Shown here: one piece after another, positions 1-14,479 of the stretch
Position numbering within the stretch: position 1 is the stretch's first letter
Layout: the number at the start of each line of letters is the position of its first letter
Assembly (NCBI GenBank): GCA_012035435.1
Contig: JAAUPH010000019.1
Coordinates: forward strand, 1-15,862
Direction of reading: 5' to 3'
From: Sphingopyxis sp.
Lineage (GTDB): Bacteria > Pseudomonadota > Alphaproteobacteria > Sphingomonadales > Sphingomonadaceae
DNA length: 15,862 nt
Notes under the pieces: generated by a model
Databases searched by the model: none
The model's input: only the letters and a program-made list of their open reading frames with translations
Told to the model about the DNA's origin: nothing
Made by a program: the position numbers and the translations under genes

Positions 1-531
1 CGAGTGATTGCCGGAACGCGGGTGACCAGCGAGGCGCAGCTTGCCAGAGTTGTCGCACCTGAAGCAGGGCCCCTCCCCCTGACTGTCGCGACCGTTCCGA
101 TTCCGGCGAGGCTCGAAACGCGGCACATGGCGATGATCGGCACCACCGGCAGCGGCAAGACCACGGCGCTGCGCCAATTGCTCGATGGGATCGAAGCGCG
201 CGGCGAGGCGGCGCTGGTCTATGACACCAGCGGCGAGTTCATCGCGCATTATTATGATCCAGCGCGCGGAGACATCATCTTGAACCCGTTCGACGCCCGC
301 TGCGCCTTCTGGTCGCCGTTCGCCGAGATCGCGCATCCCGCCGACGCCGATCGCATCGCGCAGCAGCTTATCACCGAGACCGGCCAGCACGACCGCGATG
401 TCTGGCTGGAAACCAGCCGCATCCTCGTCGCCAACATGATCCGGGAATTGTGGAAGGAGAAGAAATGCACGTTGCCGGACCTGCTCGAAGCTCTGCAGAA
501 GTGGGACAAGGATACACCAAAGAGCAGATGA
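1..531 (+). pseudogene. traD: TraD-like conjugative coupling protein, 5' fragment (interrupted)
   Basis: Type IV coupling proteins are inner-membrane ATPases that feed relaxase-bound DNA into a conjugation channel. This piece carries the start of the ATPase domain: Walker A GTTGSGKT at nt 139-162, followed by a DTSGEF strand and the typical NPFDARCAFWSPF segment. The frame is open to the left edge, so the GTG at nt 4 is probably not the start and the membrane-spanning N-terminus lies outside the window. Similarity stops after LPDLLEALQ near nt 498. The last codons up to the TGA at 529-531 read into an integrase fragment in another frame. The rest of the gene, with Walker B, resumes in the same sense at 1802. 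I am confident of the family and of the interruption; the symbol is by family resemblance. Confidence 0.85.
502..510 (+). repeat. Left junction repeat TGGGnnAAG of the traD insertion
   Basis: TGGGACAAG at 502-510 matches TGGGCTAAG at 1802-1810 in 7 of 9 positions, exactly 1300 bp away. Both copies sit where traD sequence meets integrase sequence, and in the traD frame they read WDK and WAK. They may be the crossover remnants of the insertion, although such a short imperfect match could be chance. A second candidate is AAGGATACA, at 508-516 and again at 1826-1834. Confidence 0.4.
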
Positions 532-740
532 CCACGCATGGCTTCCGCACATCGGCTTCCTCGCTGCTGAACGAATCCGGCAAATGGAATCCTGACGCTA
601 TCGAGCGGGCGCTCGCGCATATGGTGTCCGGCGAGATACGCCGCATATACAATCAGTCGGCATATTGGGCTGAGCGTGTTGAAATGGCGCAATGGTGGAG
701 CGATTATCTGGATGAATTGCGTGAAGGGGGGAACAGATGA
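510..740 (+). pseudogene. int: Tyrosine integrase (P4 type), C-terminal fragment
   Basis: This fragment holds the second half of a tyrosine recombinase catalytic domain. It has the H-x-x-R box (HGFR, just after MTT), the second His in ALAH, and the nucleophile region with Tyr in RIYNQS, followed by the usual tail MAQWWSDYLDEL. It has no start of its own: the reading frame enters from traD sequence at about nt 510 (GYTKEQM). Its missing first half lies about 0.5-1.3 kb downstream, at 1249-1809. Joining ALRRMG at the end of that piece to YTKEQM here gives a continuous family-typical sequence. The TGA at 738-740 overlaps the ATG of the next gene (ATGA), as in an intact two-gene unit. The fragment cannot recombine DNA alone. 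Confidence 0.85.
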
Positions 741-1543
741 CGGGTCGCCCAGATGAAGGTTGGAAAATCTTCGCGGACGGGGACGAAGCCGACAACGTGC
801 CGCTCTGGAAGGTGCTGGCGCAATTCAGGTCAGACGACCTCGATGAAGGCCTGAGCGCGAACGCGGCGATCATCAATCAGGCCAAGCCGTCGCCTGTTCG
901 CTTTTATAATCTCGCTTTCGGCGTCAGCTTTGGTTTCGGGTTCCTGTCCGTCATCTTCCTGATCGGCCTCCTGATCTCGGACCATTCAAAAGCTACGGAC
1001 CTTTTCTTCTATCTCACGTTGGCCATGCTGGCAGCAACGATGGCACCGCACCTCTGGAGACAGTTATATCAGTACGGCCTGAAAATCCCGGAGGTCCCGC
1101 TGAAATTGCCCCATCCGCCGGACCGACTTTTCGACGAAGTGCTGGAGTATTTGCAGAGAGCTGATGGCCCGCGAGCCTACTACCTCTCTCGTTTCCGCAA
1201 GAAGCGGATTCCTCTCAAGCGCAGGCAGTTTTTCGGCAGGCTGGACGCAGGCCGGTTGCCGAGATCAGTCCTGTCGAACTGCTGCATGAAATCAAACACC
1301 ACGAACGACGGGGACGGTATGAAACTGCTAAGCGGCTTCGTTCTTTTGCCAGTAGGGTGTTCCGTTACGCCGCTGCCACGGCACGGGCAGAGCGAGACCC
1401 TGCGCAATTGCTTTTGGGCGCGCTCATCCAGCCAAGGGTCAAGCACTTTGCGGCGATCACCGACCCCGTTGGGTTTGGTGGGTTGCTCCGGTCTATTGAG
1501 GACTACGAGGGCGATCCGGCAGTCATGCACGCGCTCAAACTGA
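737..1543 (+). CDS. Small membrane protein, C-terminus replaced by out-of-frame integrase DNA
   Basis: I do not recognise this family. The ATG at 737 overlaps the integrase stop in an ATGA, so it was probably co-translated with int. Residues 1-50 are soluble and acidic. Two hydrophobic segments follow: about residues 55-80 (FGFGFLSVIFLIGLL) and 86-106 (LFFYLTLAMLAATMAP), then a soluble part reaching about residue 165 (LFDEVLEYLQRADGP). Beyond about nt 1235 the frame merely reads through an integrase fragment that is coding in another frame, and the composition changes to Ser, Arg and Cys-rich. The real protein is therefore about 165 residues, perhaps cut at its end by the deletion that also removed the integrase N-terminus. 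It is probable cargo of the inserted element. Confidence 0.5.
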   Translation: MTGRPDEGWKIFADGDEADNVPLWKVLAQFRSDDLDEGLSANAAIINQAKPSPVRFYNLAFGVSFGFGFLSVIFLIGLLISDHSKATDLFFYLTLAMLAATMAPHLWRQLYQYGLKIPEVPLKLPHPPDRLFDEVLEYLQRADGPRAYYLSRFRKKRIPLKRRQFFGRLDAGRLPRSVLSNCCMKSNTTNDGDGMKLLSGFVLLPVGCSVTPLPRHGQSETLRNCFWARSSSQGSSTLRRSPTPLGLVGCSGLLRTTRAIRQSCTRSN

Positions 1544-1809
1544 CGCCGCATCTGTTTCAGCGGCCCGGCGAGTTGCGGCAGATGGAATGGGCTGAGATCA
1601 ACTTTGAGAAAGCAATCTGGACGCTGCCGCCCGAGAAAATGAAAATGCGGCAGCCCCACGCGGTGCCCTTGTCGCGGCAGGCATTGGGAATTCTGGAGAG
1701 TATGAGTGGGCTGACCGGGAAAGGGAAATATGTGTTCCCATCGGTTCGGACGCGAGCGCGTCCAATTTCTGAGAATACCGTCACCGGCGCTTTACGCCGC
1801 ATGGGCTAA
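1249..1809 (+). pseudogene. int: Tyrosine integrase (P4 type), middle fragment with first catalytic half
   Basis: The frame reads GRRPVAEISPVELLHEI and then ASRVFRYAAATARAERDP, which is the core-binding domain of P4/phiR73-like integrases. After AAITDP comes the first catalytic box FQRPGELRQMEW, with the catalytic Arg, and the beta-hairpin Lys region MKMRQPHAVPLS. It ends in TVTGALRRMG followed by TAA at 1807-1809, where the sequence has switched to traD. The N-terminal DUF4102-type arm domain (about 100-150 residues) is absent. Upstream of about nt 1245 the frame is open but unlike an integrase. The remainder of the protein (HxxR, His, Tyr) is at 510-740. The two pieces together hold all the catalytic residues but lie in reversed order. 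Confidence 0.85.
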
Positions 1810-2698
1810 GCTGAAGAGCTGGCTGAAGGATACATCGTCGGCCCGAACATTTTCGGAAGATGCGGACCGCGCGACCGGCAGTGTGCTCTTCATGCTCGCG
1901 ATGGCCGCGAATCTCATCCAGTTCCTGCGAATGCCCAAGGTAGGTGAGAAAGCCTTCGCCTTCCGGGATTTCATCGCGGGCCTCGACAAGCGCACCGGCG
2001 CGCGCCCGTGGATATTCGTGCCGCGCAAAGAGGATTTTTTCGAAGCATCGAAGCCGCTGCTCGCCTGTTGGCTCGAATGTGCGGCCAGCGCCGTTCTAGG
2101 TCTTCCGCCATCGCCCGATCGGCGCGTCTGGTTCGTCCTCGACGAGCTGGCCGATCTGCCGCGCGTGGATAACCTCGCGCGACTCTTGCCCGAGGGCCGA
2201 AAGTTCGGCGCTGCGGTCGTGCTGACCTTTCAGGCGCTCGGCCAGATGCGGCACCGCTACGGGCCGCAGATCGCGGAGTCGATGCTGGGCTGCTGCAATA
2301 CCAAGCTGTTCCTCCAGATCATCGACAGCGAGACCCGCGTCTGGGCCAGCCAGACGATCGGCGAATGCGAAGTCGAGATCCAGACGTTGACCGACGCGCT
2401 CGCCGAGCGCGACGATGCGGCGCGCACGACCTTGGGCCGAATGCGGAAGATGCGGCCCGCCATTCTCGAAAGCGAACTCCGCCTGCCGAAATTTGAAGGC
2501 TATTTGTTGTTCCCCGATGGCTTGCCCGTCGCACGGATCAAGCTCACCGCCGATCATATCGCGCGGCGCGGCAAGGCGTGCCAGCCGGGGTTCGTCGCGG
2601 GCGATCCGAAAACCACGCTTTGGCAACAGGCGGCGCAGCCTTCGCCTCCATCGCCGCGGCCGTCGCCGCCACCACCCAAGAGCCGGGGGCCGGTCTGA
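1802..2698 (+). pseudogene. traD: TraD-like conjugative coupling protein, 3' fragment
   Basis: This is the downstream part of the coupling-protein gene whose 5' part ends near nt 510. From the junction it reads WAKLKSWLKDTSSARTF, then DRATGSVLFMLAMAANL. Walker B follows as VWFVLDELADLP at about 2126-2160, then the sensor-like region VVLTFQALGQMRHRYG and GCCNTKLFLQ. The C-terminus is Pro and Ser-rich. The open frame extends upstream of 1802, but that part is antisense-like readthrough of the integrase fragment. The TGA at 2696-2698 overlaps the ATG of the relaxase gene by one base, the usual coupled traD-traI arrangement. No native start or Walker A is present here. Confidence 0.85.
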
Positions 2699-3501
2699 TG
2701 GTTGCGTCGGTATCGGCGCTGACCAGTTCGGCGCAGGCCAGCAGCTATTATGAGGTCGATGACTATTATGCCGAGGGCGGCTTGTCGCCATCCGAATGGC
2801 AGGGCGCGGGCGCGAAGACGCTTGGCCTCTCCGGCGAGGTGGATCGCGAGCAGTTCCGCGAATTGCTCGACGGCAGGATCGGCGAGCAGCAGCTTGGCAC
2901 GTTTCGCGACGGCCAGTTGGAGCATCGCCCCGGCTGGGACGTGACCTTGAGTGCGCCCAAGTCGGTGTCGATCATGGCCGAGGTCGCGGGCGACCGGCGC
3001 TTGATCGCGGCGCATGGGCAGGCGGTCAAAACCGCGATGGCGCATGTCGAGACGCATATGGCGGCCAGCATCCGGTTCACCCGCAACGACCGCGAGGCGG
3101 GACGGGTCAACGGTGGGCGCGGCGAGGTGATCGCCGTGGACGGGCAGACGCGCACGGCCATCATCCAGACGCCGGGCGGCAAGACCGAGACCCTGCATCT
3201 CGACGCGGCTCGCGACCGGCATATTGCCCATGCCTACGTCGAAACCGCCTTTGCCGCCCAAGGCCGCACCGCCGATCATGTCATCATCCACGCCGACAGC
3301 AAGGCGACCAATCTCGTCGATCAGAAGAGCTTCTATGTCGGGATTTCCCGCGCGAAGGAAACTGCGACGATCTTCACCAACGATCGTGGCAAGCTGATGT
3401 CTGCCATCAATGAACGCGCCGGGCAGGTGCAAACCGCCATCGCTCAGGTTGCTATCCCGATGCCCGCAGCCGCGCGAATAATGGGCGCCGGATTGGAGTG
3501 A
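2698..3501 (+). pseudogene. traI: MOBF relaxase/helicase TraI with a large in-frame internal deletion
   Basis: TraI/TrwC proteins nick oriT with an N-terminal HUH relaxase domain and unwind DNA with a C-terminal helicase; they are usually 900 residues or more, and this one has 267. Residues 1-125 are the relaxase start: the paired tyrosines in SSYYEVDDYY, then GLSPSEWQGAGAKTLGL and GWDVTLSAPKSVSIM. Near nt 3060-3075 (HMAAS to IRFTRND) the sequence jumps to the distal helicase: FTRNDREAGRVNG, then AYVETAFAAQGRTADHV and FYVGISRAKETATIF. The three-His metal site and helicase Walker A and B are gone, so neither nicking nor unwinding is expected. The frame is preserved across the joint. The start is the ATG overlapping the traD stop. 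The ORF is uninterrupted, but I treat it as a decayed gene. Confidence 0.85.
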
Positions 3502-3568
3502 AATTTCAGCAATCTTCTCGACAAGGAATTCTTCCAAAGATATAAACTGTCTCGAACAGGGGGATTCT

Positions 3569-4288
3569 ATGAAGAGAGCTCCATTCAGAGCAACAGCGGG
3601 CTTGGCTCTTTGTGCCGTAGCGCTATCCAATCCAGCCAATGCGCGCTTTTTGCAAGTCGATCCCGTCGGATACGACGATCAAGTGAATTTGTACGCCTAT
3701 AGCGCCAACGATCCGGTCAATCGGATCGATCCAACAGGCATGCGCAATTGCAATCCGCAGGATACGACTTGCATTGAAACTCCAGAGTCGGAGACGGACC
3801 CCAACAAACCGGAAACCAATCCTCCGGAAACAGACACAAAGGATGCGATTGTCGTAACCGCGCAGAAGAGTAAGAGCAACACTAGCGGGTCGAGTGAAAA
3901 GTTCTTTGAGGTTACGCTAACGTCATTTGACGAGCGCAAGCTGAAACAAAAAGACATACAGTGCCCCGGCGGCGGGAGTGTCACAGTGGGCACGCCTGCA
4001 CCGATATCACCCGGATCAAGTGCTGCGCACTCTCATCCTTCGACTCATTCTGGTGTTCCCGGCCCCGGCGACAACAACTTTGGAAACACGAGTAATACGG
4101 GGTATGTAATAACGCCTTCTAGAGCTTTTGGGATTGATCGGGCCTCGAATGGTACTTATCGTACGAGAATACTTTCCGGAGGCCCGTTGTCTGCGTCGGA
4201 GCGATCTGACTTGATTGGGAACATGCAGAACTGGGAGAGTGGGAATTCTTCTGATAAATCAAAGACACTCGTTCAGCGGTTCTGCTGA
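3569..4288 (+). CDS. Sec-exported Rhs-core protein with JAB/DUF4329-like C-terminal domain
   Basis: The 239-residue product begins with a signal-peptide-like segment ([19 protein letters not shown], then NPANA as a likely cleavage site). The Rhs-repeat-associated core signature follows directly ([19 protein letters not shown], then [11 protein letters not shown]). Next is a Thr, Pro and Glu-rich linker at about residues 63-95. The C-terminal domain contains H154-S-H-P with D168 after PGPG, then [14 protein letters not shown]. This resembles the metal-binding H-x-H-P...D pattern of JAB/MPN and DUF4329 domains found at Rhs protein ends. Rhs C-termini are usually toxins. The rest of the Rhs shell is absent, so this is a short orphan form. 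The region is clearly more AT-rich than its neighbours. The stop overlaps the next start by one base. The toxin assignment is inference. Confidence 0.65.
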
Positions 4289-4674
4289 TGATTGTCCGTG
4301 CCATATCCATAGGGATTTCTCCACTTCTCCTAGTTTCATGCGGTTCTGGTAGCGCGAATTCTCAGCCTGCAAGCCCAACCGCCTTGATGTCATATGATGA
4401 ATGTGTGTCATCCACTATTTGCAGCGCGGAGGGTCAAGTTTCTGTGCAAAACGTGGACGGCATAAAAACAGGCAGAATGGAATTTCCTAACGGAAAATGT
4501 GTAACATTGTCGTTATCAGAGTCCTTCTTCCGAAAGACGAAGCTTCCCGCCACGCTGAGAATAACTGGAAAAATATACAAGGGGCACCATGATCCGGAAT
4601 TCCTTCTTCTAAAAATCAATGGACGCAAGATTTCATACTCCCCTTGTGGAGAATATTACATTTTCGTGGAGTGA
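4288..4674 (+). CDS. Small lipoprotein, candidate immunity partner of the Rhs/JAB protein
   Basis: The 128-residue product begins [20 protein letters not shown], a lipoprotein signal with lipobox LVSC, so Cys18 would be lipidated and the protein anchored in the periplasm. The mature part is compact with several Cys (ECVSSTICS, GKCVTL, SPCGEYY) and a beta-rich middle (ATLRITGKIYKG). I see no known family. Its ATG overlaps the stop of the Rhs/JAB gene (TGATG), so the two are translationally coupled. It shares that gene's AT-rich composition, which suggests they moved together. Periplasmic immunity lipoproteins next to toxin genes are a known pattern, so immunity is the likeliest role, but that is inferred from position only. 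Confidence 0.6.
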   Translation: MIVRAISIGISPLLLVSCGSGSANSQPASPTALMSYDECVSSTICSAEGQVSVQNVDGIKTGRMEFPNGKCVTLSLSESFFRKTKLPATLRITGKIYKGHHDPEFLLLKINGRKISYSPCGEYYIFVE

Positions 4675-5657: not shown

Positions 5658-6214
5658 TTAATCCAAAAGCGGCGCGATGCCGTCCAGCAAAGCCACTCTT
5701 CGAATGTCTTTGGCCAGAGTGCGAAATATCCGGTGATGCATAGCATCCGCCATCGAACGGCCCATTGATCTATCTTCATGCGGCTCGCGATTTGCTCGCG
5801 GGTCAAATGATCGCGGTGAAGCATGAAGGTTTCGCGGACAGACCGAGGCATGGCCCGCACCATAATTTGACTGACGGCCTGATCGTCGTCGCCGCCATTG
5901 TCCCAAGCGATGCGGATGCCCATAAGGCGCAACCTGCGCTCGCAATAGACGCGGTGGCGTTGGCGAAGTTCGGTCTCGGCCTGTGCCAGCGGTTTGCGCC
6001 GCCAGCGTCGTGGCGTATCGCCATCGACGAATGAGCCGATCATCACCAAGGCTTCGGCTATGCAGCATTCCACGGCTCGGGTCGTAATCGCCAGCCGGTC
6101 GGCAATCTGCCCGTAGGAAAGATCGTCCACACGGTGCAGCAGAAAGACCAAGCGCGTTAATGGAGGAAGCTCGTCCACGGCGGCTTCGTAAAGAGCCAGC
6201 ATGTCTTGCGTCAT
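5654..6214 (-). CDS. Regulator-like protein with two sigma-70 region-4-like HTH domains
   Basis: The 186-residue product has no sigma region 2. The first HTH, about residues 8-58, reads ELPPLTRLVFLLHRVDDLSY and GQIADRLAITTRAVE, close to region 4 of FecI-type sigma factors, including the one encoded at 12280-12807. The second, about residues 115-165, is a more diverged copy (AMPRSVRETFMLHRDHLTRE, QIASRMKIDQWAVR). A basic linker lies between them. I chose the ATG at 6214 because it overlaps the upstream gene's stop in an ATGA; an ATG at 6235 is also in frame. The stop shares CTAG with the convergent transglutaminase-like gene. It may act as a DNA-binding or anti-sigma-like regulator rather than a sigma factor; the role is not known to me. 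Confidence 0.65.
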   Translation of the reverse strand: MTQDMLALYEAAVDELPPLTRLVFLLHRVDDLSYGQIADRLAITTRAVECCIAEALVMIGSFVDGDTPRRWRRKPLAQAETELRQRHRVYCERRLRLMGIRIAWDNGGDDDQAVSQIMVRAMPRSVRETFMLHRDHLTREQIASRMKIDQWAVRWRMLCITGYFALWPKTFEEWLCWTASRRFWIN

Positions 6215-6663
6215 GGCCGTGTCCTGTCTGGGCAACGACGCCAGCCGTTGGGGCGCGGATGGCCGGTGACATCATGCGCCCGGTCCAGCAAGGCTCGCAG
6301 GATTGTCCGGACCTCTTCGATGGTGAACGCGCCATCATCGGGTCGCGGTTTGCCGAACCGATGGACGTGACCCCATTTCCAATAGGGCGAGAGAACCGCT
6401 GTCAGCCGCGTCATGTCGGGGCAATGATGCGCGAAGCCTGTTGCATTGGCGTAGGCCAGCCCTTTGCCAACATCGAGCCGGATATGGCGAGCGTTCCATG
6501 CGTCCGAGAAACCGACGTCGAGTAGGTGCGCCGATAGCGCGAGCTGGGCGACCATGCCGGATTGATAAAGCATCTCGTCGCTCCGATCGTAGAAGCCCCG
6601 ACCCAGCGATTCAAAGAAGCTTTCGGCATTGTGATAGCGGAACCGGCTTAAGCTTCGCCTCAC
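6211..6663 (-). pseudogene. Conserved hypothetical protein, N-terminus replaced by fusion
   Basis: This is the final part (about 150 residues) of a long open frame starting at 7518. From about nt 6605 downward it reads GFYDRSDEMLYQSGMVAQLA, then HLLDVGFSDAWNARHIRLDV, GKGLAYANATGFAHHCPDMT and LSPYWKWG, ending VTGHPRPNGWR. It feels like a conserved sphingomonad soluble protein that accompanies the small sigma-like gene, but I cannot name a function. No convincing start precedes it: the frame enters from permease and DUF3299-like remnants. Residues just before the conserved part (RFRYHNAESFFESLG) may belong to yet another piece. Its TGA overlaps the next gene's ATG, so that coupling survives. 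Confidence 0.5.
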
Positions 6664-6759
6664 CCAGCGCTTCTGCGTCCTTCCATTGTCGAGCGGCATC
6701 ATCCATCCCGCCACCTTTATCGTCTTGCCGTTAAGCGCTTTGACGGCAGCCGGGAATAC
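6664..6759 (-). pseudogene. DUF3299-like fragment
   Basis: About 32 residues in frame between a permease end and a hypothetical protein read FPAAVKALNGKTIKVAGWMM followed by PLDNGRTQKRW. This resembles the start of DUF3299 proteins, where 'L-x-G-K-x-V-x-[IV]-A-G-[FY]-x-x-P-L' opens the mature domain. The rest of that domain, with its conserved Cys/His region, is absent. From memory, DUF3299 genes follow FtsX-like permease genes in metal-responsive operons of the Pseudomonas aeruginosa PA4063-PA4066 kind, which matches the order here. The identification rests on a short stretch. Confidence 0.4.
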
Positions 6760-7464
6760 GCGCAGCGCGGGGATGAAGGCGGCAAGCAGGCCAATCGCAA
6801 AAACGCCGAGGACAATCGCCAACTCGCCCGGAAAAAAGCGCCAGGGATCAATGCCAATCTCTGACAATTGTGAAAAACGTGAAACCGCAATCGCCATTGC
6901 GCCATGGCCGATGACCAAGCCGAGCAAAGCCCCGGCGGCCGCGGTGATCAACCCTTCGGCGAGGATGACGCCGAAAACCGAACCGCGCGAAGCACCCATG
7001 ACCCGCAGCAATGCAAGATCACCTTCCCGCGCCTGGGCAGCATTGAGCAAAGCGACAAAAATCGAGAGGCCGCCGGTAAATGCCAAAAGCCAGGCAAACA
7101 TGCGGACGCTATCAATGCCGATTCCCAACAAGTTCAGGAGACGCGCCGTCTCGGTTGCGGGAACCGCCGCCTGCATTTCGGTTTGCCGGTTGATCATCGA
7201 CGGGATGCGCACGGCTCCGAAAGATGAGCGATAGGATACAAGCAACGCCGTGATCTCAGGCTTAAGCTCTCCGCGCGCAGTCAAATTGGCCGGGCCATGC
7301 TCGTGCCCGTCAGCTTCGTGCCCATCCTCATCATGGTCATGGTGATGAAGCTCTTCATGGGCCTCTCCGGCTTCATGTTCATGGGCGATGCCATGCGCAT
7401 CCCAGACGCTTTCAACTGGTGTGAGGATTAGCCGGTCAATGACCGTTCCGGTCGGTGCCAATAC
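6757..7464 (-). pseudogene. FtsX-like ABC permease with His-rich loop, truncated at both ends
   Basis: About 235 residues of an ABC transporter permease of the MacB/LolC type. The fragment enters at VLAPTGTVIDRLILTPVESV. It then has a His/Asp/Glu-rich stretch at about nt 7295-7400 (HEHEAGEAHEELHHHDHDED and more), a periplasmic part, and three membrane helices typical of the FtsX domain: MFAWLLAFTGGLSIFVALLN, VILAEGLITAAAGALLGLVI, and LAIVLGVFAIGLLAAFIPAL. LLRVMGASRGSVF is the family's cytoplasmic coupling motif. The N-terminal helix and first periplasmic part are missing, replaced at about 7465 by metalloprotease sequence in a different frame. The C-terminus runs straight into DUF3299-like sequence. 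No start of its own. The His-rich loop suggests metal, perhaps zinc, but transport of metal by this subfamily is not shown. Confidence 0.75.
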
Positions 7465-8680
7465 GCGGGTCGATAACCGAGGGGCCGTAGCCGTTGAACA
7501 ACGGAGTAGGCGAAGCAATCCACTGGATCAGGTTATATCGGATGTCGCCGGCGTCCCAATCGGCATCGTCGGGCTGTTGTCGAACCTCAATTGCATTTTC
7601 AAAGCCGGCGGCAGCAAAGGCCGGGTTCCATAGCAACGCCGCCTGTTTCACCAACTCGCGGTAGGCATGCGGTGTGCTGTTCTGGATCCAGAAAACGATC
7701 GGTTTGACCGGTGGCGACAGAGGCTTGGACGGGTCCTGCTTTTCCAGACGCCAGCGTTGGATCACATCGTCGATCTGCGACCCTTCGATCCGTTCCAGGT
7801 TGGTCTTGCGAACAGAGATCAGCCCGACCCGAGGATCGTAGGAACGCGGTGCAAAGCCAGGGGCGGGCACCCTGACAAGGTTATGCTGCAACTCGATGCT
7901 GACTGGCTGAGGACCCGTTTTAAAATCGAACACATATTCGGTGATGATCGCGGTGTTGGCGGGATAGTTTCTGACGTCCTGTAGAGCAGTTTTGGCCTTG
8001 CTAAGCGACGGGTTCAAACCCGCCGCCGTGAGCAGAGGTGAGGCATTGCCGATACGGAACAGATCCGTACCGATAAACAGCGGATTGGCGGCGACGATAA
8101 GTGTCTTGTCGTCGGCATCCCGCGCGACAATCGTGAGGCGCGCCATGACACTGTCACCGGCATTGGTACCAAACGCCCGCTTGAGCGGACTGTCCGGTTC
8201 AATCGTATAGGCCAGATTTTCGCGCATCACATCGATGCGGTTGAACCGCTTGCGAAAACGTATGGTGAAATTGTCGCCGACCTGGCCAGCAAAACGCAAA
8301 TCGCCCAATTGCGCCAACAACCCGCTGACACCGTTGCGCACAAAGGTATAGTAGATGAATTGCTCGGACAGCTGCGATTCCGATATTTCCAGAAACACTG
8401 TGCCGCTGACCGCGTCCCGGTATATCGGAAATAGCCCGTCGAGGCGTTGCTTGTCTTTAACGAACTCTGCGATGGTCTTGGGTTTGGGAGCAGGCTTGTC
8501 CGCACTCGCCGTCGCATCAACTGCGACCGTGGGACAGTCAGGGCCGACGCAGGCCGAATCTTCGGTCGGCGCCGGCTGGGCCGCTGTTGGCATGAGGGGA
8601 AATAGGAGTAGCATGGCGAGAAGCACCAAGCGTGCCCAAGCTGCCATCCTACTGCATCCGATCTCTATCCCGCCAAACAT
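7436..8680 (-). CDS. DUF5117-type zinc metalloprotease, truncated before the catalytic motif
   Basis: The 414-residue product has a signal peptide (LVLLAMLLLFPLMPTAAQ). A long domain follows that I match to the DUF5118/DUF5117 part of secreted metalloproteases (KDKQRLDGLFPIYRDAVSGT; FIYYTFVRNGVSGLLAQLGD; RFRKRFNRIDVMRENLAY). It then begins the DUF4953 catalytic domain (PHAYRELVKQAALLWNPAFA; DIRYNLIQWIASPTPLFNGY; GPSVIDPR) and stops. The HExxH zinc site that should come soon after DPR-T-G is absent. From about nt 7466 the frame reads nine unrelated residues into permease DNA. Family members are about twice as long, so this protein should be inactive. The ATG at 8680 follows the receptor stop by 12 bases, with AGGA upstream, so it sits in the FecI/FecR operon. 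Confidence 0.7.
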   Translation of the reverse strand: MFGGIEIGCSRMAAWARLVLLAMLLLFPLMPTAAQPAPTEDSACVGPDCPTVAVDATASADKPAPKPKTIAEFVKDKQRLDGLFPIYRDAVSGTVFLEISESQLSEQFIYYTFVRNGVSGLLAQLGDLRFAGQVGDNFTIRFRKRFNRIDVMRENLAYTIEPDSPLKRAFGTNAGDSVMARLTIVARDADDKTLIVAANPLFIGTDLFRIGNASPLLTAAGLNPSLSKAKTALQDVRNYPANTAIITEYVFDFKTGPQPVSIELQHNLVRVPAPGFAPRSYDPRVGLISVRKTNLERIEGSQIDDVIQRWRLEKQDPSKPLSPPVKPIVFWIQNSTPHAYRELVKQAALLWNPAFAAAGFENAIEVRQQPDDADWDAGDIRYNLIQWIASPTPLFNGYGPSVIDPRIGTDRNGH

Positions 8681-8692
8681 GAGGTCCTACCT

Positions 8693-11053
8693 TCAGAAAC
8701 GGGCCCGGAAGCCCGCAGAAATCGTCCGCCCGCCGGTAAAGAGATAACGGTCGGGGAAGAAGAATTCGGCGTCGCCGCCATTGAAACGGGACGAAACGGC
8801 ACTGCGGATGTCCAGTTCAGTCGAGCCACGCAGCAGGTCGTCCCCTTGGAGAAACACTGTCCAGCCCGCACCGAGCGTGTCGAAACTATAGGACAGTCGC
8901 ATATCGAGCGTCGCATAAGCGGGGACGATGGTGTCCAGCCCGTGGATTTCGAACGACGACGGCGAAGCGGATTGGCGGGTATAAATCAACCGCCCCTCGG
9001 ACCCGTCCTTTTCGTAATTCAGCGAGGCATTGTAGACGAGGGCTGCCTGATCCTCGAACGGGCGGTCGACCGTGAAGCTTCCCAATGTACCATCATCGTT
9101 TCGGCCAGACAGCAAGGTTGGAAAACGGGACTTGGTATAAGTCAGATTTCCTAGCACCCCGAAATCGCTGAGAAAACCGGGCAGGAAGCTGAGCTTGCGG
9201 ATCAGCTCCAACTCGAAGCCATAAATTTTACCACCTGCGCCGTTTTCAGGGCGATTGCGTTCAAAGGACGTGGACGCATTGAACGCCACCAATTCGGGGC
9301 GCGCAGTGGCCAGAGCGCCAAAGCTGGCCAGGATTTCCTGGCGAACATCATCGTCGCCGCCTGCTTGGAAAAAGACGTTAGTGAAATTGTTGCTGACTTT
9401 TTTGTAAAAAAAGCCCGCCCTTATCAACCCCGGGGAATCGGTAAAATAATAGGACAAATCAATATCGAAATTGTCCGTCTTGGTCGGACGCAAATCGGGA
9501 TTGGCCTCGGTTATCAGCGCGCGATTGATGGTCGGACGCAGATCAATGCTTATCTGGCGCGATCGGCGCAGCAGCCGGAAGTCGGGATTCACGGTCGAGC
9601 GGAAATAGGCAAACCGAGCGACCAAATTGTCCTGTGGGCGATAGTTAAGGATTACACTGGGTGTTAATGTTGTCTGTGTCCCAGACAGTTCGGTGAAAGC
9701 CACCAGACCCGCATTCACAAACGTCTCACGCGGCTCAAGAATGTTCGCGGCTGTACGAACAGAAGGTGAGGTAAGAGATCGGCCACTCCGGAACCGGCTT
9801 TCAAAACGCGCGCCACCAATCAATTCAAAATTGGCCAGAGTGAATTTAGCCTCGACATAGCCGGCGCGGTTCTCTTCAACCGTCTTTGTGGGAATTAGCC
9901 CGCCGACGTCCAGAATGGGATCGAAGTCGCGCCGATCAGTGCGTGTAAAGCGCCGTTCGTTGCCGTTGACCTGAAATTCATTGCCAAAAGCGCGATCAAA
10001 ACCAGTTTCGCCCTCGATCCCGAAATTGAGCGCGAACTTGCCATAATCGAGCCCAGATTTGGTTTCGATTTCGACGAGGCCGCCCGATCCGGTCGCCTGA
10101 TGGCTGGGCAGCAGCGATTTCTGGATGGTAACCTGTGAAATATTTTCTGCCAGGAATCCGCTCAGGTCGATCGTGCGTTCAAATCCGGTCCCTTGCAGAT
10201 CCAGCCCGTTGAGCTGGATATTGATCGCCTCTGAACTGAAGCCGCGCACGGTGATCCGTTCGCCTTCCCCCGTCTCTTCGCTGCGGCCAAAGGCAACACC
10301 GGGCAACCGCCGCAAGGCTTCGGAGACGGTTTCGGCCGGAAAGCTGCCGAGCAGGTCGGACGAAACTATCGTGGCGCTGTTGTCGGCGCGCAGCTGTTGG
10401 TTAAGGGCCCGCTGGATGGCGCTGCTATAGCCAAGCACGACGATTTCGGCGCTCACACCGCCTAGCTTCAGGGCGACTCGCTGGCGCTCTTCGCTATCCG
10501 CAGCGAGCGGGAACGATGCACTCGACTGCCCAAGATATTCGACCGTAATGCTGGTTGCTGAGACCGGCACCTCGGGAAAGAAAAAGCGCCCCCGTTCGTC
10601 GGCTATGGTCGCCAGATCGGTCCCGTCGATGACCAGGCGGGCACCGGGAAGCGCCCAATCGTTGGCCGCTGCAGTAACCACGCCCTGCACGGGTGTTGTG
10701 CCAATTGACCCTGTGTTGTCCGTCGCAGCGCTCGCTGATTGGATTGAGAACACCCGTGGTTCGACCTGGCGGATGCGAAGTCCGGTACCAGTCAACAGTC
10801 GTTCCAGCCCCCGTACCGGAACAAAGCGACCACGCAGTTCGGTCGACCTCAGGCCGCGGACCAGTGCGGGATCGTACACAAGGTCGGCATCCGACTGCTG
10901 CGCGAACTGGTCGAGCGCGGCTTTCAAATCCTGCGCATCGACGTTAAAGGCGATTTGCTGCGGCGCTACCGCAGTCGTTTGTGCGACCACCGGAACGGTC
11001 GTCATCGCGGTCGCACCCGTAAGCAGCGCTGCCAGCCATTTTGCCCTGTTCAT
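8693..11053 (-). CDS. TonB-dependent receptor with STN signalling domain
   Basis: An outer-membrane receptor for active import of a ligand, of the transducer kind that signals to FecR. I start it at the ATG at 11053 because AAGGGG lies seven bases upstream and a signal peptide follows (KWLAALLTGATAMTTVPVVA); the frame is open further, to 11137. In order: an STN domain at about residues 33-105 (LKAALDQFAQQSDADLVYDP), a carboxypeptidase-regulatory-like domain at about 120-195, a plug at about 215-335 (SEALRRLPGVAFGRSEETGE, ERITVRGFSS, ATGSGGLVEIETKSG), then a barrel ending in a C-terminal Phe (RTISAGFRARF). The barrel is only about 420 residues. The step from GNEFQVNGN to ERRFTRTDRRDFDP at about nt 9960 looks like an in-frame deletion. 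The ligand is unknown; metal chelates, saccharides or peptides are possible. Confidence 0.85.
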   Translation of the reverse strand: MNRAKWLAALLTGATAMTTVPVVAQTTAVAPQQIAFNVDAQDLKAALDQFAQQSDADLVYDPALVRGLRSTELRGRFVPVRGLERLLTGTGLRIRQVEPRVFSIQSASAATDNTGSIGTTPVQGVVTAAANDWALPGARLVIDGTDLATIADERGRFFFPEVPVSATSITVEYLGQSSASFPLAADSEERQRVALKLGGVSAEIVVLGYSSAIQRALNQQLRADNSATIVSSDLLGSFPAETVSEALRRLPGVAFGRSEETGEGERITVRGFSSEAINIQLNGLDLQGTGFERTIDLSGFLAENISQVTIQKSLLPSHQATGSGGLVEIETKSGLDYGKFALNFGIEGETGFDRAFGNEFQVNGNERRFTRTDRRDFDPILDVGGLIPTKTVEENRAGYVEAKFTLANFELIGGARFESRFRSGRSLTSPSVRTAANILEPRETFVNAGLVAFTELSGTQTTLTPSVILNYRPQDNLVARFAYFRSTVNPDFRLLRRSRQISIDLRPTINRALITEANPDLRPTKTDNFDIDLSYYFTDSPGLIRAGFFYKKVSNNFTNVFFQAGGDDDVRQEILASFGALATARPELVAFNASTSFERNRPENGAGGKIYGFELELIRKLSFLPGFLSDFGVLGNLTYTKSRFPTLLSGRNDDGTLGSFTVDRPFEDQAALVYNASLNYEKDGSEGRLIYTRQSASPSSFEIHGLDTIVPAYATLDMRLSYSFDTLGAGWTVFLQGDDLLRGSTELDIRSAVSSRFNGGDAEFFFPDRYLFTGGRTISAGFRARF

Positions 11054-11143
11054 TATGTTGCCCCTTGTGCATCGGTCCACTGCGCCGACCAATTCCCTTG
11101 TTGACCGGCTCCATCGAACATGACGCACTAGTGACAAAATCCC

Positions 11144-12283
11144 TCAAGGCTTGGCGGTAATCCCGGCGTCCGATGCGCCATTATTTGCATCCGGCAGGAT
11201 CAAGATAGTATCACCGCGCTGGCGGGCGAGGCGGACAGGGAAGCTGGCTGACAGGGCGTTGGCAAAGTTTTCTGCCGAACCGATGCGCAAGGTTGCGCTG
11301 ATTTTCATCGTCGCGATCGCCGGGTCGCCTACTTGCAATTTGATGTTGGAATAGCGGTTGATCTCCGTCACCACGGCGCTCAGCGGCTGGTTGTCAAAAA
11401 TCAACCGGCCCTCACGCCAGCTGGCGGACGTTGCCAAATTGGCGCGGCTGATTTCAGCGCGCTGGCCAGCGCCAACGACAATTTGCTCCCCGGCCACCAA
11501 CTGCGCAATGCTGGTCGCCGCTGCGGTATCGCCACGCTCAACGCGCACTTTCCCTTCCAGTAGCGTGACCTTGATGCTCCCGGCGTCCTTGCGAACCGAA
11601 AAGACGGTGCCCAATGCAACAACCCTTTCTTTTCCGGCCGCGACAATAAAGGGACGCCTTTGGTCGTGCGCCACATGGAAGACGGCCTCACCCAGCAACA
11701 GTCGCAAGTTGCGGCGCCCATTGCTGAAATCAACGGCCACTAGCGAATTGGTATTCAATTCGATGCGCGAGCGATCAGGCAGGACAAAGCTGGCCCGTTG
11801 ACCAACCGCCGTACGGTAACGCGATGCAAAGCGCTCGCCTTGTGTGGGGTTCGCTGCAGCAACCTCCTGCGGTACGACCGGAGTTTTCGGCGGGCTGCCC
11901 GGACCCTGGGCCGACTGCATCGCCACAGGCGCGGTTTCCGTCATCGGCTTGCTGTAGAGCATCGCGCCAGAGAACAGCACCAGCGCCAGCGATGCTGCTA
12001 TCGCCCAGCCATGCTGCCGCCAACCGCTGGGTCTTTGTGCCGAAACGGAGAGAGCATCAATGCGCAGACGGGCCATCGCCGGATGCTCGCCGACATCACC
12101 GAGCGCGCTCCACATGCTGCTGACCTGTTCATAGGCGGCAGCGTGAGCATGGTTTGCATCGCGCCACCCGCAAAATCTGTTCCAAAGATCGGGTCCAGCG
12201 TCCTCCCTACGGAGTAGTGCAAACCACTCCGATGCCGCAGCAAGCGCATCGCCATCGACCGAATTTTGAGTTACGTCGGTCAT
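11144..12283 (-). CDS. fecR: FecR-family anti-sigma/sigma regulator
   Basis: FecR proteins sit in the inner membrane, sense the loaded TonB receptor through its STN domain and control the partner ECF sigma factor. The 379-residue product has the N-terminal DUF4880-like cytoplasmic part (AAASEWFALLRREDAGPDLW, GWRDANHAHAAAYEQV) and one membrane helix at about residues 91-110 (WAIAASLALVLFSGAMLY). A FecR domain covers about 160-260 (RTAVGQRASFVLPDRSRIEL; LLLGEAVFHVAHDQRRPFIV; LGTVFSVRKD; VTLLEGKVRVERG). An STN-like end follows (FDNQPLSAVVTEINRYSNIK). Length and domain order are normal. The ATG overlaps the sigma-factor stop by four bases (ATGA). The receptor gene follows after about 90 bases. 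The symbol denotes the family, not proven ferric-citrate sensing. Confidence 0.9.
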   Translation of the reverse strand: MTDVTQNSVDGDALAAASEWFALLRREDAGPDLWNRFCGWRDANHAHAAAYEQVSSMWSALGDVGEHPAMARLRIDALSVSAQRPSGWRQHGWAIAASLALVLFSGAMLYSKPMTETAPVAMQSAQGPGSPPKTPVVPQEVAAANPTQGERFASRYRTAVGQRASFVLPDRSRIELNTNSLVAVDFSNGRRNLRLLLGEAVFHVAHDQRRPFIVAAGKERVVALGTVFSVRKDAGSIKVTLLEGKVRVERGDTAAATSIAQLVAGEQIVVGAGQRAEISRANLATSASWREGRLIFDNQPLSAVVTEINRYSNIKLQVGDPAIATMKISATLRIGSAENFANALSASFPVRLARQRGDTILILPDANNGASDAGITAKP

Positions 12284-12807
12284 GCCGGGGGGGCCAGATT
12301 CCGGGCCAGATGATGAATGGCTGCAATCATATGTTTCTCGACGGAGCTTACCGAAATTCCGAACCGGTCTGCAATTTCCCGATATTTCAAACCTTCATAA
12401 CGGTGCAGCAGAAACACCGTTCGGGTCCGTTCGGGCAGTTCATCGATCAGGATGAAAAGATGCCGCAATGCGTCCCGACCAAGCAAGACGCGCTCGGGCG
12501 ATATTTCCTCAAAACTTTCGCCTTCGCGGTGGTGCAGTTCGGTGCGGGCGGTCGACCACGTCAGTCCCCGCCGTGCGCGATCACGCAACAAATTGCTCGC
12601 AGCCTGAAAAACATAGGCGGTAGGATTGTCGATCGATGCATCGTCCGCGCGGTCGAGCAGCCGGCTGAACAACTCTTGCGTCAAGTCATCGACCTCTGCC
12701 GCATTCCTGACCCGCTTGGCAAAATAAGCGCGTATGGGCCGTTCGAGGCGAGCATGGAGATCGGCGTGAAATGCGACTTCGCTATTGTTGAGTTTGCCCT
12801 TCGCCAT
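12280..12807 (-). CDS. fecI: FecI-type ECF sigma factor
   Basis: The 175-residue product has region 2 (FHADLHARLERPIRAYFAKR; VDDLTQELFSRLLDR; NPTAYVFQAASNLLRDRARR) and region 4 (IDELPERTRTVFLLHRYEGL, YREIADRFGISVSSVEKHMI) of FecI-like ECF sigma factors. It is the first gene of a minus-strand unit running into fecR with a four-base overlap and then the TonB receptor. This is the standard cell-surface-signalling order. It should direct RNA polymerase to the receptor operon when FecR is signalled. Length is normal and no lesion is seen. The name is by family; the inducing ligand cannot be read from the sequence. Confidence 0.9.
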   Translation of the reverse strand: MAKGKLNNSEVAFHADLHARLERPIRAYFAKRVRNAAEVDDLTQELFSRLLDRADDASIDNPTAYVFQAASNLLRDRARRGLTWSTARTELHHREGESFEEISPERVLLGRDALRHLFILIDELPERTRTVFLLHRYEGLKYREIADRFGISVSSVEKHMIAAIHHLARNLAPPA

Positions 12808-13056: not shown

Positions 13057-14140
13057 ATGACCCCCACCAAAATCCTGATCGGCCAAAACCTGTTTGTGTT
13101 CGCCATCGTGATCGCGGGCATCTGGCTGGCGACACGATGGGCGGCATCGGCGCTGGCCTACCAACCCCAGCTTGGACCGGCATGGTTCATCGTCGTCGAT
13201 ATTCCTGTCTACCGCCTCTGGTCGATCTTCCCCTGGTGGTATCATTTGGACGCTTACGCCCCGCACGTTTTCGACACAGCAGGCTCGATCGCCGCGGCAA
13301 GCGGCTTCGTCGGCTGCGGCACGGCAATCTTCGGATCGCTTTGGCGCGCCCGGCAGTCACGCAATGTCACCACGTACGGCTCTGCCAAATGGGCGAGCGC
13401 CGCCGAAATGCGCAAGGCCGGGCTGTTCGATGCCGCTGGTGTCTTTCTCGGTCGCATCGGCGCACACTACGTCCGCCATGACGGCCCCGCGCATGTCATA
13501 GCATTCGCGCCGACGCGGTCGGGCAAGGGTGTAGGGCTGGTCGTTCCGACCTTGCTCGGCTGGTCGGGCTCCGCAGTCGTCCACGACATCAAGGGCGAGA
13601 ATTGGCAGCTGACGGCGGGCTGGCGGCAGCGTTTCTCGCACTGTTTGCTGTTCAACCCGACCGATGCACGCTCGGCGCGTTACAACCCGCTGATGGAAGT
13701 GCGGCGCGGCGTTCATGAAGTCCGCGACGTCCAGAACATCGCCGACATCCTCGTCGACCCCGAAGGCGCGCTCGAACGGCGCAACCATCGGGAAAAGACC
13801 AGCCCTGCGCTGCTCGTCGGCGCGATCCTCCACATTCTTTATGCCGAACAGGAGAAGACGCTCGCGCGGGTCGCCACCTTCCTGTCCGACCCCGAGCGCA
13901 GCTTTGCCGCGACGTTGCGCGCGATAATGACCACCAACCATCTCGGCAGCGCCGAGGCACCGCAAGTGCATCCGGTGGTTGCGTCGGCGGCGCGCGAAGT
14001 GCTCAACAAGAGCGAGAATGAACGATCGGGCGTGCTCTCGACCGCGATGTCGTGTCTCGGGCTCTACCGCGACCCGACCGTCGCTGCCGTCACATCGACC
14101 TGCGACTGGCGGATCGCCGACCTTGTCGAAGGCGCACATG
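13057..14140 (+). pseudogene. traG: VirD4/TraG coupling protein, truncated before Walker B
   Basis: This is a coupling ATPase of a trb-type conjugation system. I start it at the ATG at 13057, which opens a membrane helix (ILIGQNLFVFAIVIAGIWLA); more hydrophobic segments follow (WFIVVDIPVYRLWSIFPWW; GSIAAASGFVGCGTAIFG). Then come the family motifs TYGSAKWASAAEMRKAGL, Walker A in FAPTRSGKGVGLVVP at about residues 149-163, VVHDIKGENWQLTAGWR, and NPLMEVRRGVHEVRDVQNIA. Similarity runs to [11 protein letters not shown] near nt 14140 and ends there. The usual continuation with Walker B (LLDEF) is absent, and the frame carries on through an antisense IS3-type fragment to a stop at 14560-14562. About 360 of the usual 600 or so residues remain, so it is inactive. 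Confidence 0.85.
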
Positions 14141-14475
14141 GGGCTGTAGCTTCTTCTGGTAATCGTATGAGCAATATTGGCTACCGCGATCAGAATGGAA
14201 TAGGCAGCCCGGCGGCGGATTACGCAGTCACACCGCCATGTCCAATGCCTGGATCGCCAGATCCTTCTTCATTCGGTCACTGGCAGCCCAACCGACCACA
14301 CGGCGGCGCAGTTTATCCTGAGCGCCTGCCTTGGCAGGCAGTCGAAGGGCAGATCGAGGATGACAGCAAGGTAGAGCCACCCTTCGGCCGTCCAGACATA
14401 GGTGATATCGCCAGCTCACTTCTGGTTGGGCGCAACGGCTACAAAGTCGCCGTCCAGCCAGTTCGCTGCAACACC
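14141..14475 (-). mobile_element. IS3-family transposase (OrfB) remnant
   Basis: Read on the minus strand, the pieces of an IS3-type DDE transposase are in order. NWLDGDFVAVAPNQK is followed by a stop where Trp is expected, then [20 protein letters not shown] with the first catalytic Asp, a disrupted stretch, and [25 protein letters not shown] is then followed by a stop where Arg is expected, and [20 protein letters not shown] holds the second catalytic Asp, before DYQKKL. No ends, inverted repeats or OrfA are present. It joins truncated traG on one side to truncated trbI on the other, so it probably marks a deletion between two IS copies or adjacent to one. It carries two stops and one insertion, so it is dead. 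Confidence 0.8.
14311..14350. repeat. REP-like palindromic repeat inside the IS3 remnant
   Basis: A 40-base insertion breaks the transposase frame between LAVILDL and RRVVGW. It starts GTTTATCCTGAGC, ends GTCGAAGGGC, and carries a central palindrome GCCTGCCTTGGCAGGC (14324-14339; 7-bp stem, 2-base loop). The outer parts match the widespread bacterial interspersed motif of the type TCCTGAGC...GTCGAAGG, from memory common in sphingomonad genomes. It is probably a REP/BIME-type repeat. Confidence 0.5.
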
Positions 14476-14479
14476 CAGC

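Follow-up and report, generated by a model that had tools for sequence, protein, structure and literature searches.

A permuted integrase gene inside traD of a sphingomonad conjugative element: a probable scar of illegitimate recombination

The traD gene of a Sphingopyxis sp. contig (GenBank JAAUPH010000019.1; all of the 15,862 nucleotides analyzed are referred to below as the window) is interrupted by a 1294-bp insert in which parts of an integrase gene (int) appear in permuted order, with the C-terminal codons at the left end and the middle of the gene at the right end. As an assembled sequence, this permuted int inside traD is real. In the explanation that we favor, with a probability of about 0.7, the structure is a scar of illegitimate recombination in a decaying conjugative element of the sphingomonad type and not the product of a bacterial suicidal integrase; under the same explanation, the window holds a decaying integrative and conjugative element (ICE) of a bacterium of that type, the host being judged by the relatives.

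Structure of the interrupted traD gene

In the Pfam search of the window, the two halves of traD correspond to positions 2-145 and 149-387 of the TrwB_AAD_bind profile, and the insert lies between positions 514 and 1809, that is, at 515-1808 instead of the limits 498-1815 originally predicted (Table 1). It is composed, in this order, of the last 75 codons of int (ending at 740), a piece of a second gene, ORF2, the start of which overlaps the int stop (737 versus 740), and the middle part of int. The original prediction had recognized the two halves of traD, the placement of the C-terminal and middle parts of int and the missing N-terminus, all of which are confirmed by the Pfam matches and the sequence, and had overlooked the ORF2 piece together with the join that closes it to int. 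The full-length ORF2 product consists of 299 amino acids in three relatives (L001, L004 and L026); ORF2 was not recovered in L009 by a motif search and had no Pfam or PHROG match at an E-value of 0.001.

Table 1. Features of the interrupted traD region and the adjoining relaxase gene; a slash marks the position of the crossover
Feature	Position	Strand	Evidence and remarks
traD (TrwB-type coupling protein), 5' part T1	1..514	+	Pfam PF10412, 6e-55; 87% versus traD of L026's genome
Left junction J1, TA common to traD and int, GGATA/CACC	513..514		alignment to intact traD (L026) and intact int (L103)
Integrase C-terminal part, HGFR, tyrosine region and stop	515..740	+	216/226 identical to L103; PF00589
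ORF2, 5' part, ~168/299 codons	737..1241	+	gene 3' of int in relatives
Closure join J2, ORF2 to int, 2-bp TG identity	1242..1243		judged versus L026 (ORF2) and L103 (int)
Integrase middle part, central domain and start of catalytic domain, without N-terminus, ends ALRRMG	1243..1808	+	550/566 identical to L103; PF22022 and PF00589
Right junction J3, TA common to both, GGGCTA/AGCTG, creates TAA stop	1807..1808		alignment to intact traD (L026) and intact int (L103)
traD, 3' part T2	1809..2698	+	PF10412, 8e-73; 88-90% versus traD of L026's genome
MobF/TrwC relaxase gene	2698..3501	+	in-frame internal deletion of ~1.95 kb at 3066-3067, 2-bp CA (versus L026)

Both parts of int match neighboring segments of the same intact int, that of L103, and are therefore pieces of one gene; as originally predicted, joining the right end of the insert to its left end produces a continuous integrase. 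In L001, the corresponding ORF2 and int stretches adjoin in normal order (8000-9295), so that the insert amounts to 1.3 kb of element DNA that has been closed and permuted. With its PF22022 and PF00589 domains, the window integrase is closely identical to tRNA-linked ICE integrases of sphingomonads; what we take to be its catalytic motifs are HGFR, the arginine of PGELRQ and the tyrosine. A search of the window detected neither an Rfam match at gathering thresholds nor, by tRNA scan, a tRNA, and its int is partial; thus, instead of a full-length int downstream of a tRNA, the window carries a relic copy.

Junction bases and crossover geometry

The uninterrupted traD homologue that the original prediction proposed to look for is present in L026, and its alignment, together with that of the intact int of L103, reduces the bases common to both crossover partners to the dinucleotide TA (513-514 = 1807-1808), or GGnTA when one mismatch is included. 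Intact traD reads GGATAAGCT across the insertion point and intact int reads GGGCTACACC across the break, the respective sequences being GTGGGACAAGGATAAGCTT in traD of L026 and CGCATGGGCTACACC in int of L103; split at the crossover, these are ...GTGGGACAAGGATA/AGCTT... and ...CGCATGGGCTA/CACC..., to be compared with the two window junctions. The longer sequence TGGGnnAAG, previously proposed to be shared by the junctions, arose because one junction was compared with the other and not with the intact genes, and is ruled out as the crossover core by the intact traD and int, in which the common part is TA.

As a check of the coordinates demonstrates, a single reciprocal crossover at TA restores traD and int exactly, with no bases lost and both reading frames kept. 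Accordingly, the insert is most simply derived from a DNA circle that was opened within int, at codon 363/364, and it is from this geometry that we infer a circular intermediate. Around the crossover, int and traD agree at 11 of 20 bases (P about 0.02-0.03 given the 2-bp identity) and at 16 of 40 (P about 0.09-0.11); in about 16% of cases, random joins would share 2 bp or more by chance. Three joins within 2.6 kb share 2 bp each, namely TA, TG (1242-1243; estimated from the relatives L026 and L103 in place of the actual parent) and CA (3066-3067), and the clustering of three such events suggests one general joining process. Of 397 family genomes, none contained the left-junction sequence when up to 3 mismatches were allowed.

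In the favored scenario, a DNA circle with the int-ORF2 region from a related element would have met a resident traD, and an illegitimate crossover at a chance TA dinucleotide would have opened the circle inside int and inserted it into traD without loss of bases. The circle might already have been a 1294-bp deletion product or, alternatively, a whole excised element might have been inserted and later lost all but 1294 bp; closure of the circle would have used the 2-bp TG. The joining would have been accomplished by repair, a topoisomerase or similar means, and not by the site-specific reaction of the integrase itself.

Intact relatives of the integrase and of traD

A scan with the middle part of int returned 158 genome stretches, the best 80 of which were analyzed along with 6 viral-contig loci, for a total of 86 (L001-L086). 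With the intact int as the query, the gene is unbroken across the break codon in 85 of the 86 loci, including all 6 viral-contig relatives. The exception is L072 (4580-4677), where the break occurs ~17 residues earlier, the sequence leaving int at about residue 346 and entering foreign DNA that is presumably IstB-like. The closest intact int, that of L103 (97% over the middle part), is likewise contiguous across the break and is located about 165 bp downstream of tRNA-Met. Among 32 close-relative loci scanned, 26 have a tRNA upstream of int, about 570-680 bp from the matched stretch (13 Gly-ccc, 6 Cys-gca, 5 Met-cat and 2 Leu-cag); no upstream tRNA was found in the other 6, of which L004, L006 and L029 had room for one and L003, L005 and L028 had too little upstream sequence.

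The unbroken state of int in 85 of the 86 loci, combined with the upstream tRNA in 26 of the 32, indicates that the att site most likely is at the tRNA 3' end, outside int, which is a better candidate than a site at the break. In one genome (G003), the 3' end of tRNA-Met is repeated imperfectly at a distance of 20 kb from the tRNA, as expected of attR; the likeness continues past the tRNA end, and the repeat may alternatively represent the left terminus of a different element. If the tRNA 3' end is taken as the att core, its best 12-mer has 7 matches in the traD site (reached by 95% of random stretches) and 8 in the int site (reached by 45%); with the traD site in reverse complement, the match is 9 of 12 (reached by 5%). 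In the same orientation, the presumed core bears no clear resemblance to either the int or the traD site. The original prediction that the crossover occurred within int is thus upheld with respect to geometry, that of a circle opened in int with no loss of bases, and finds no support with respect to an att site of the integrase's own in that position.

The target gene traD runs uninterrupted through the insertion point in all 57 loci with a traD match (the window excluded and overlapping fetches counted), and in 20 of 20 among L001-L086. In several relatives, int and traD belong to one element, with traD about 3-4 kb downstream of int in L001, L014, L026 and others, and 7 kb downstream in L017. 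Overall, the window traD has its closest match in L026's genome (87% over 1-514 and 90% over 1804-3067); the values for L001's genome are 88% over 94-498 and 85% over 1835-3067. No traD match was found in L103's genome. A separate traD comparison scored only 2 candidates per genome, so that the absence of a match in that comparison has little weight. Given that L103 provides the closest match to the int middle part and L026 the closest to traD, the inserted DNA may have come from a second element, an assignment made uncertain by the mosaic composition of such elements. A plasmid search with window positions 1-3520 matched 24 records, none of which covered 80% of the query.

Breaks at the same codon in other integrases

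One other int, in the genome G245 (L153 13168-14444, G245:C6), is broken at the same codon as the window int, with the same local letters GGGCTA/AG. Its protein product is identical to P0107, which is assigned by a source to Sphingobium fontiphilum. The start of this int adjoins tRNA-Gly, and after GGGCTA the gene is joined to unrelated DNA beginning with AG, in which the adjoining gene runs in the opposite direction; a protein search with the latter gave only 2 weak matches. No separate C-terminal half of int was detected in the 20 kb read, and comparison of the whole G245 genome with the C-terminal part of the window int revealed one 81-bp match, at 74%, located elsewhere.

Two protein lists, P0001-P0120 (best 120 of 557 matches) and P0146-P0259 (best 120 of 169), comprise 234 homologues, 71 of which are truncated at the C-terminus; 13 of these 71 end at residues 361-365 (nominal P of 1e-5 under a uniform model), including 6 of 31 in the first list and 7 of 40 in the second, which was made as a test. 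Among the clean-ended truncated homologues listed, 3 of 18 end exactly at residue 363 (nominal P of 5e-4), with 3 of 9 in the first list and none of 9 in the second; those ending exactly at RR(M/L)G are, among the matches listed, P0052, P0107 and P0118. The truncation counts mix frameshifts, contig ends and true breaks, with several cases being frameshifts. Because of these mixed causes, the tendency of conserved blocks to attract alignment ends and the restriction to the best 120 matches, we give the clustering little weight. There is only a slim chance that this integrase family has, in the region of int codon 363/364 (GGnTA), a genuine secondary crossover site or fragile site through which excised circles are occasionally inserted into non-tRNA targets, splitting int, as an occasional bacterial counterpart of archaeal suicidal integration.

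Competing explanations

A site-specific crossover within int is poorly supported. The specific version in which the integrase itself acted through an att-like site inside int, in a suicidal fashion similar to that of SSV or Mx8, using a secondary site in traD and followed by internal deletion, seems to us rather improbable. It would account for the exact reciprocity with which both genes are restored, and it is favored by the G245 int, with its break at this very codon, and by the accumulation of listed truncated homologues at residues 361-365; the tRNA upstream of int in most relatives scanned and the integrity of int at the break codon in nearly all loci point the other way, and the start of the G245 int is still adjacent to its tRNA-Gly, with no separate C-terminal half found in the 20 kb read. 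Furthermore, the overlap used by tyrosine recombinases is usually 6-8 bp, longer than the 2-bp identity at the crossover. Rearrangement without site-specific recombination, which the original prediction had named as the main alternative, fares better. Both halves of the refutation proposed in the original prediction are borne out, the first by full-length int genes beside tRNAs and the second in the sense of short identity at the endpoints, which amounts to 2 bp at the crossover and to 2 bp at each of two other joins in the vicinity.

It is unlikely, if somewhat less so, that the joins are an assembly or amplification chimera that was absent from living cells. The density of the joins, three with 2-bp identity in 2.6 kb, the lack of a second copy of the left junction in the 397 family genomes and the open frames kept by the broken genes, which make the breaks look very recent, are all compatible with an artifact, but random chimeras would not be expected to yield exact reciprocity at both ends of the insert, and short-read assemblers need overlaps longer than 2 bp to mis-join sequences. 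Replication template switching, whereby the stretch from the int C-terminal part to ORF2 would be copied before a jump back to the int middle part and then into traD, fits the 2-bp joins, as these are compatible with microhomology-mediated switching; the exit from each of the two genes and the return to it would need to coincide to the base pair, a double coincidence that makes this route very doubtful. A transposon that duplicates a TA target, in the style of IS630/Tc1-mariner, can be practically dismissed: TA does flank a 1292-bp stretch on both sides, but the ends of the insert are int codons, its outermost 30 bases contain no inverted repeat at the very ends (the best internal 12-mer matches at 9 of 12 positions, not in register), and the integrase domains are the only domains that Pfam detects in it.

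Comparison with known systems

The closest counterparts of the window are the tRNA-linked sphingomonad integrases with PF22022 and PF00589 domains (L001, L026, L103 and their kin), which represent the same gene with the same neighbor, ORF2; in the elements of L001 and L026, traD and mobF are found in the same element as int, as they are in the window. In these relatives int is unbroken, whereas in the window it is permuted, has lost its N-terminus and is located inside traD. The simple reading, if true, adds one more scar, with unusually clear endpoints, to those left by conjugative elements that decay and capture each other's pieces.

In the suicidal integrases of the SSV type, known from Sulfolobus viruses and Thermococcus plasmids, the recombination site lies within int and parts of int are found at both ends of the inserted DNA, as in the window (PMC8371274, in the portions available). 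In contrast to these, the window has no shared core beyond TA, with similarity tests that are borderline at best, and there is no recurrent split state at its int codon, the one broken locus among the 86, L072, being broken elsewhere. The original prediction knew of no standard bacterial case of the P4 type; a bacterial case is in print, namely the myxophage Mx8, in which attP is within the int coding sequence and the prophage int stays functional with an exchanged 3' end, according to the available part of the report (PMC6070905). Integration of this type would leave an altered but active int; the window int lacks its N-terminal part and has its middle and C-terminal parts 0.5 kb apart, in reverse order. 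The integrative mobilizable plasmid pPDL2 of Sphingobium fuliginis is also a sphingomonad element, but its attP is at the 3' end of int1 and recombined with attB at the 3' end of a seryl-tRNA, and the accessible sections of that paper report no split int (PMC3516476). Should the break site prove recurrent and Int-dependent, self-splitting integration, which the available part of a review confines to archaea, would be extended to bacteria.

Other features of the window

An ORF downstream of the relaxase gene (3569-4674) has no Pfam match and, we assume, resembles the C-terminal end of an RHS-type protein; it is followed by a small lipoprotein-like ORF. An FtsX-like permease ORF on the minus strand (6211-7518) runs into unrelated sequence at its end, and positions 6230-6660 match DNA in several other loci at 65-72% and are perhaps an insertion-sequence remnant. 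In the region 14134-14478, TraG (T4SS-DNA_transf) is cut off and followed by ~340 bp that have counterparts in other genomes of sphingomonads (73% for the whole stretch and up to 100% for 43 bp of it) and then by a 5'-truncated gene that we take to be trbI-like; no inverted repeats of at least 10 bp were found. Finally, 7436-12807 on the minus strand encodes an apparently truncated DUF5117/DUF5118 protein, a TonB-dependent receptor, FecR and a sigma factor, a set of uptake-signalling genes situated between two conjugation gene remnants.
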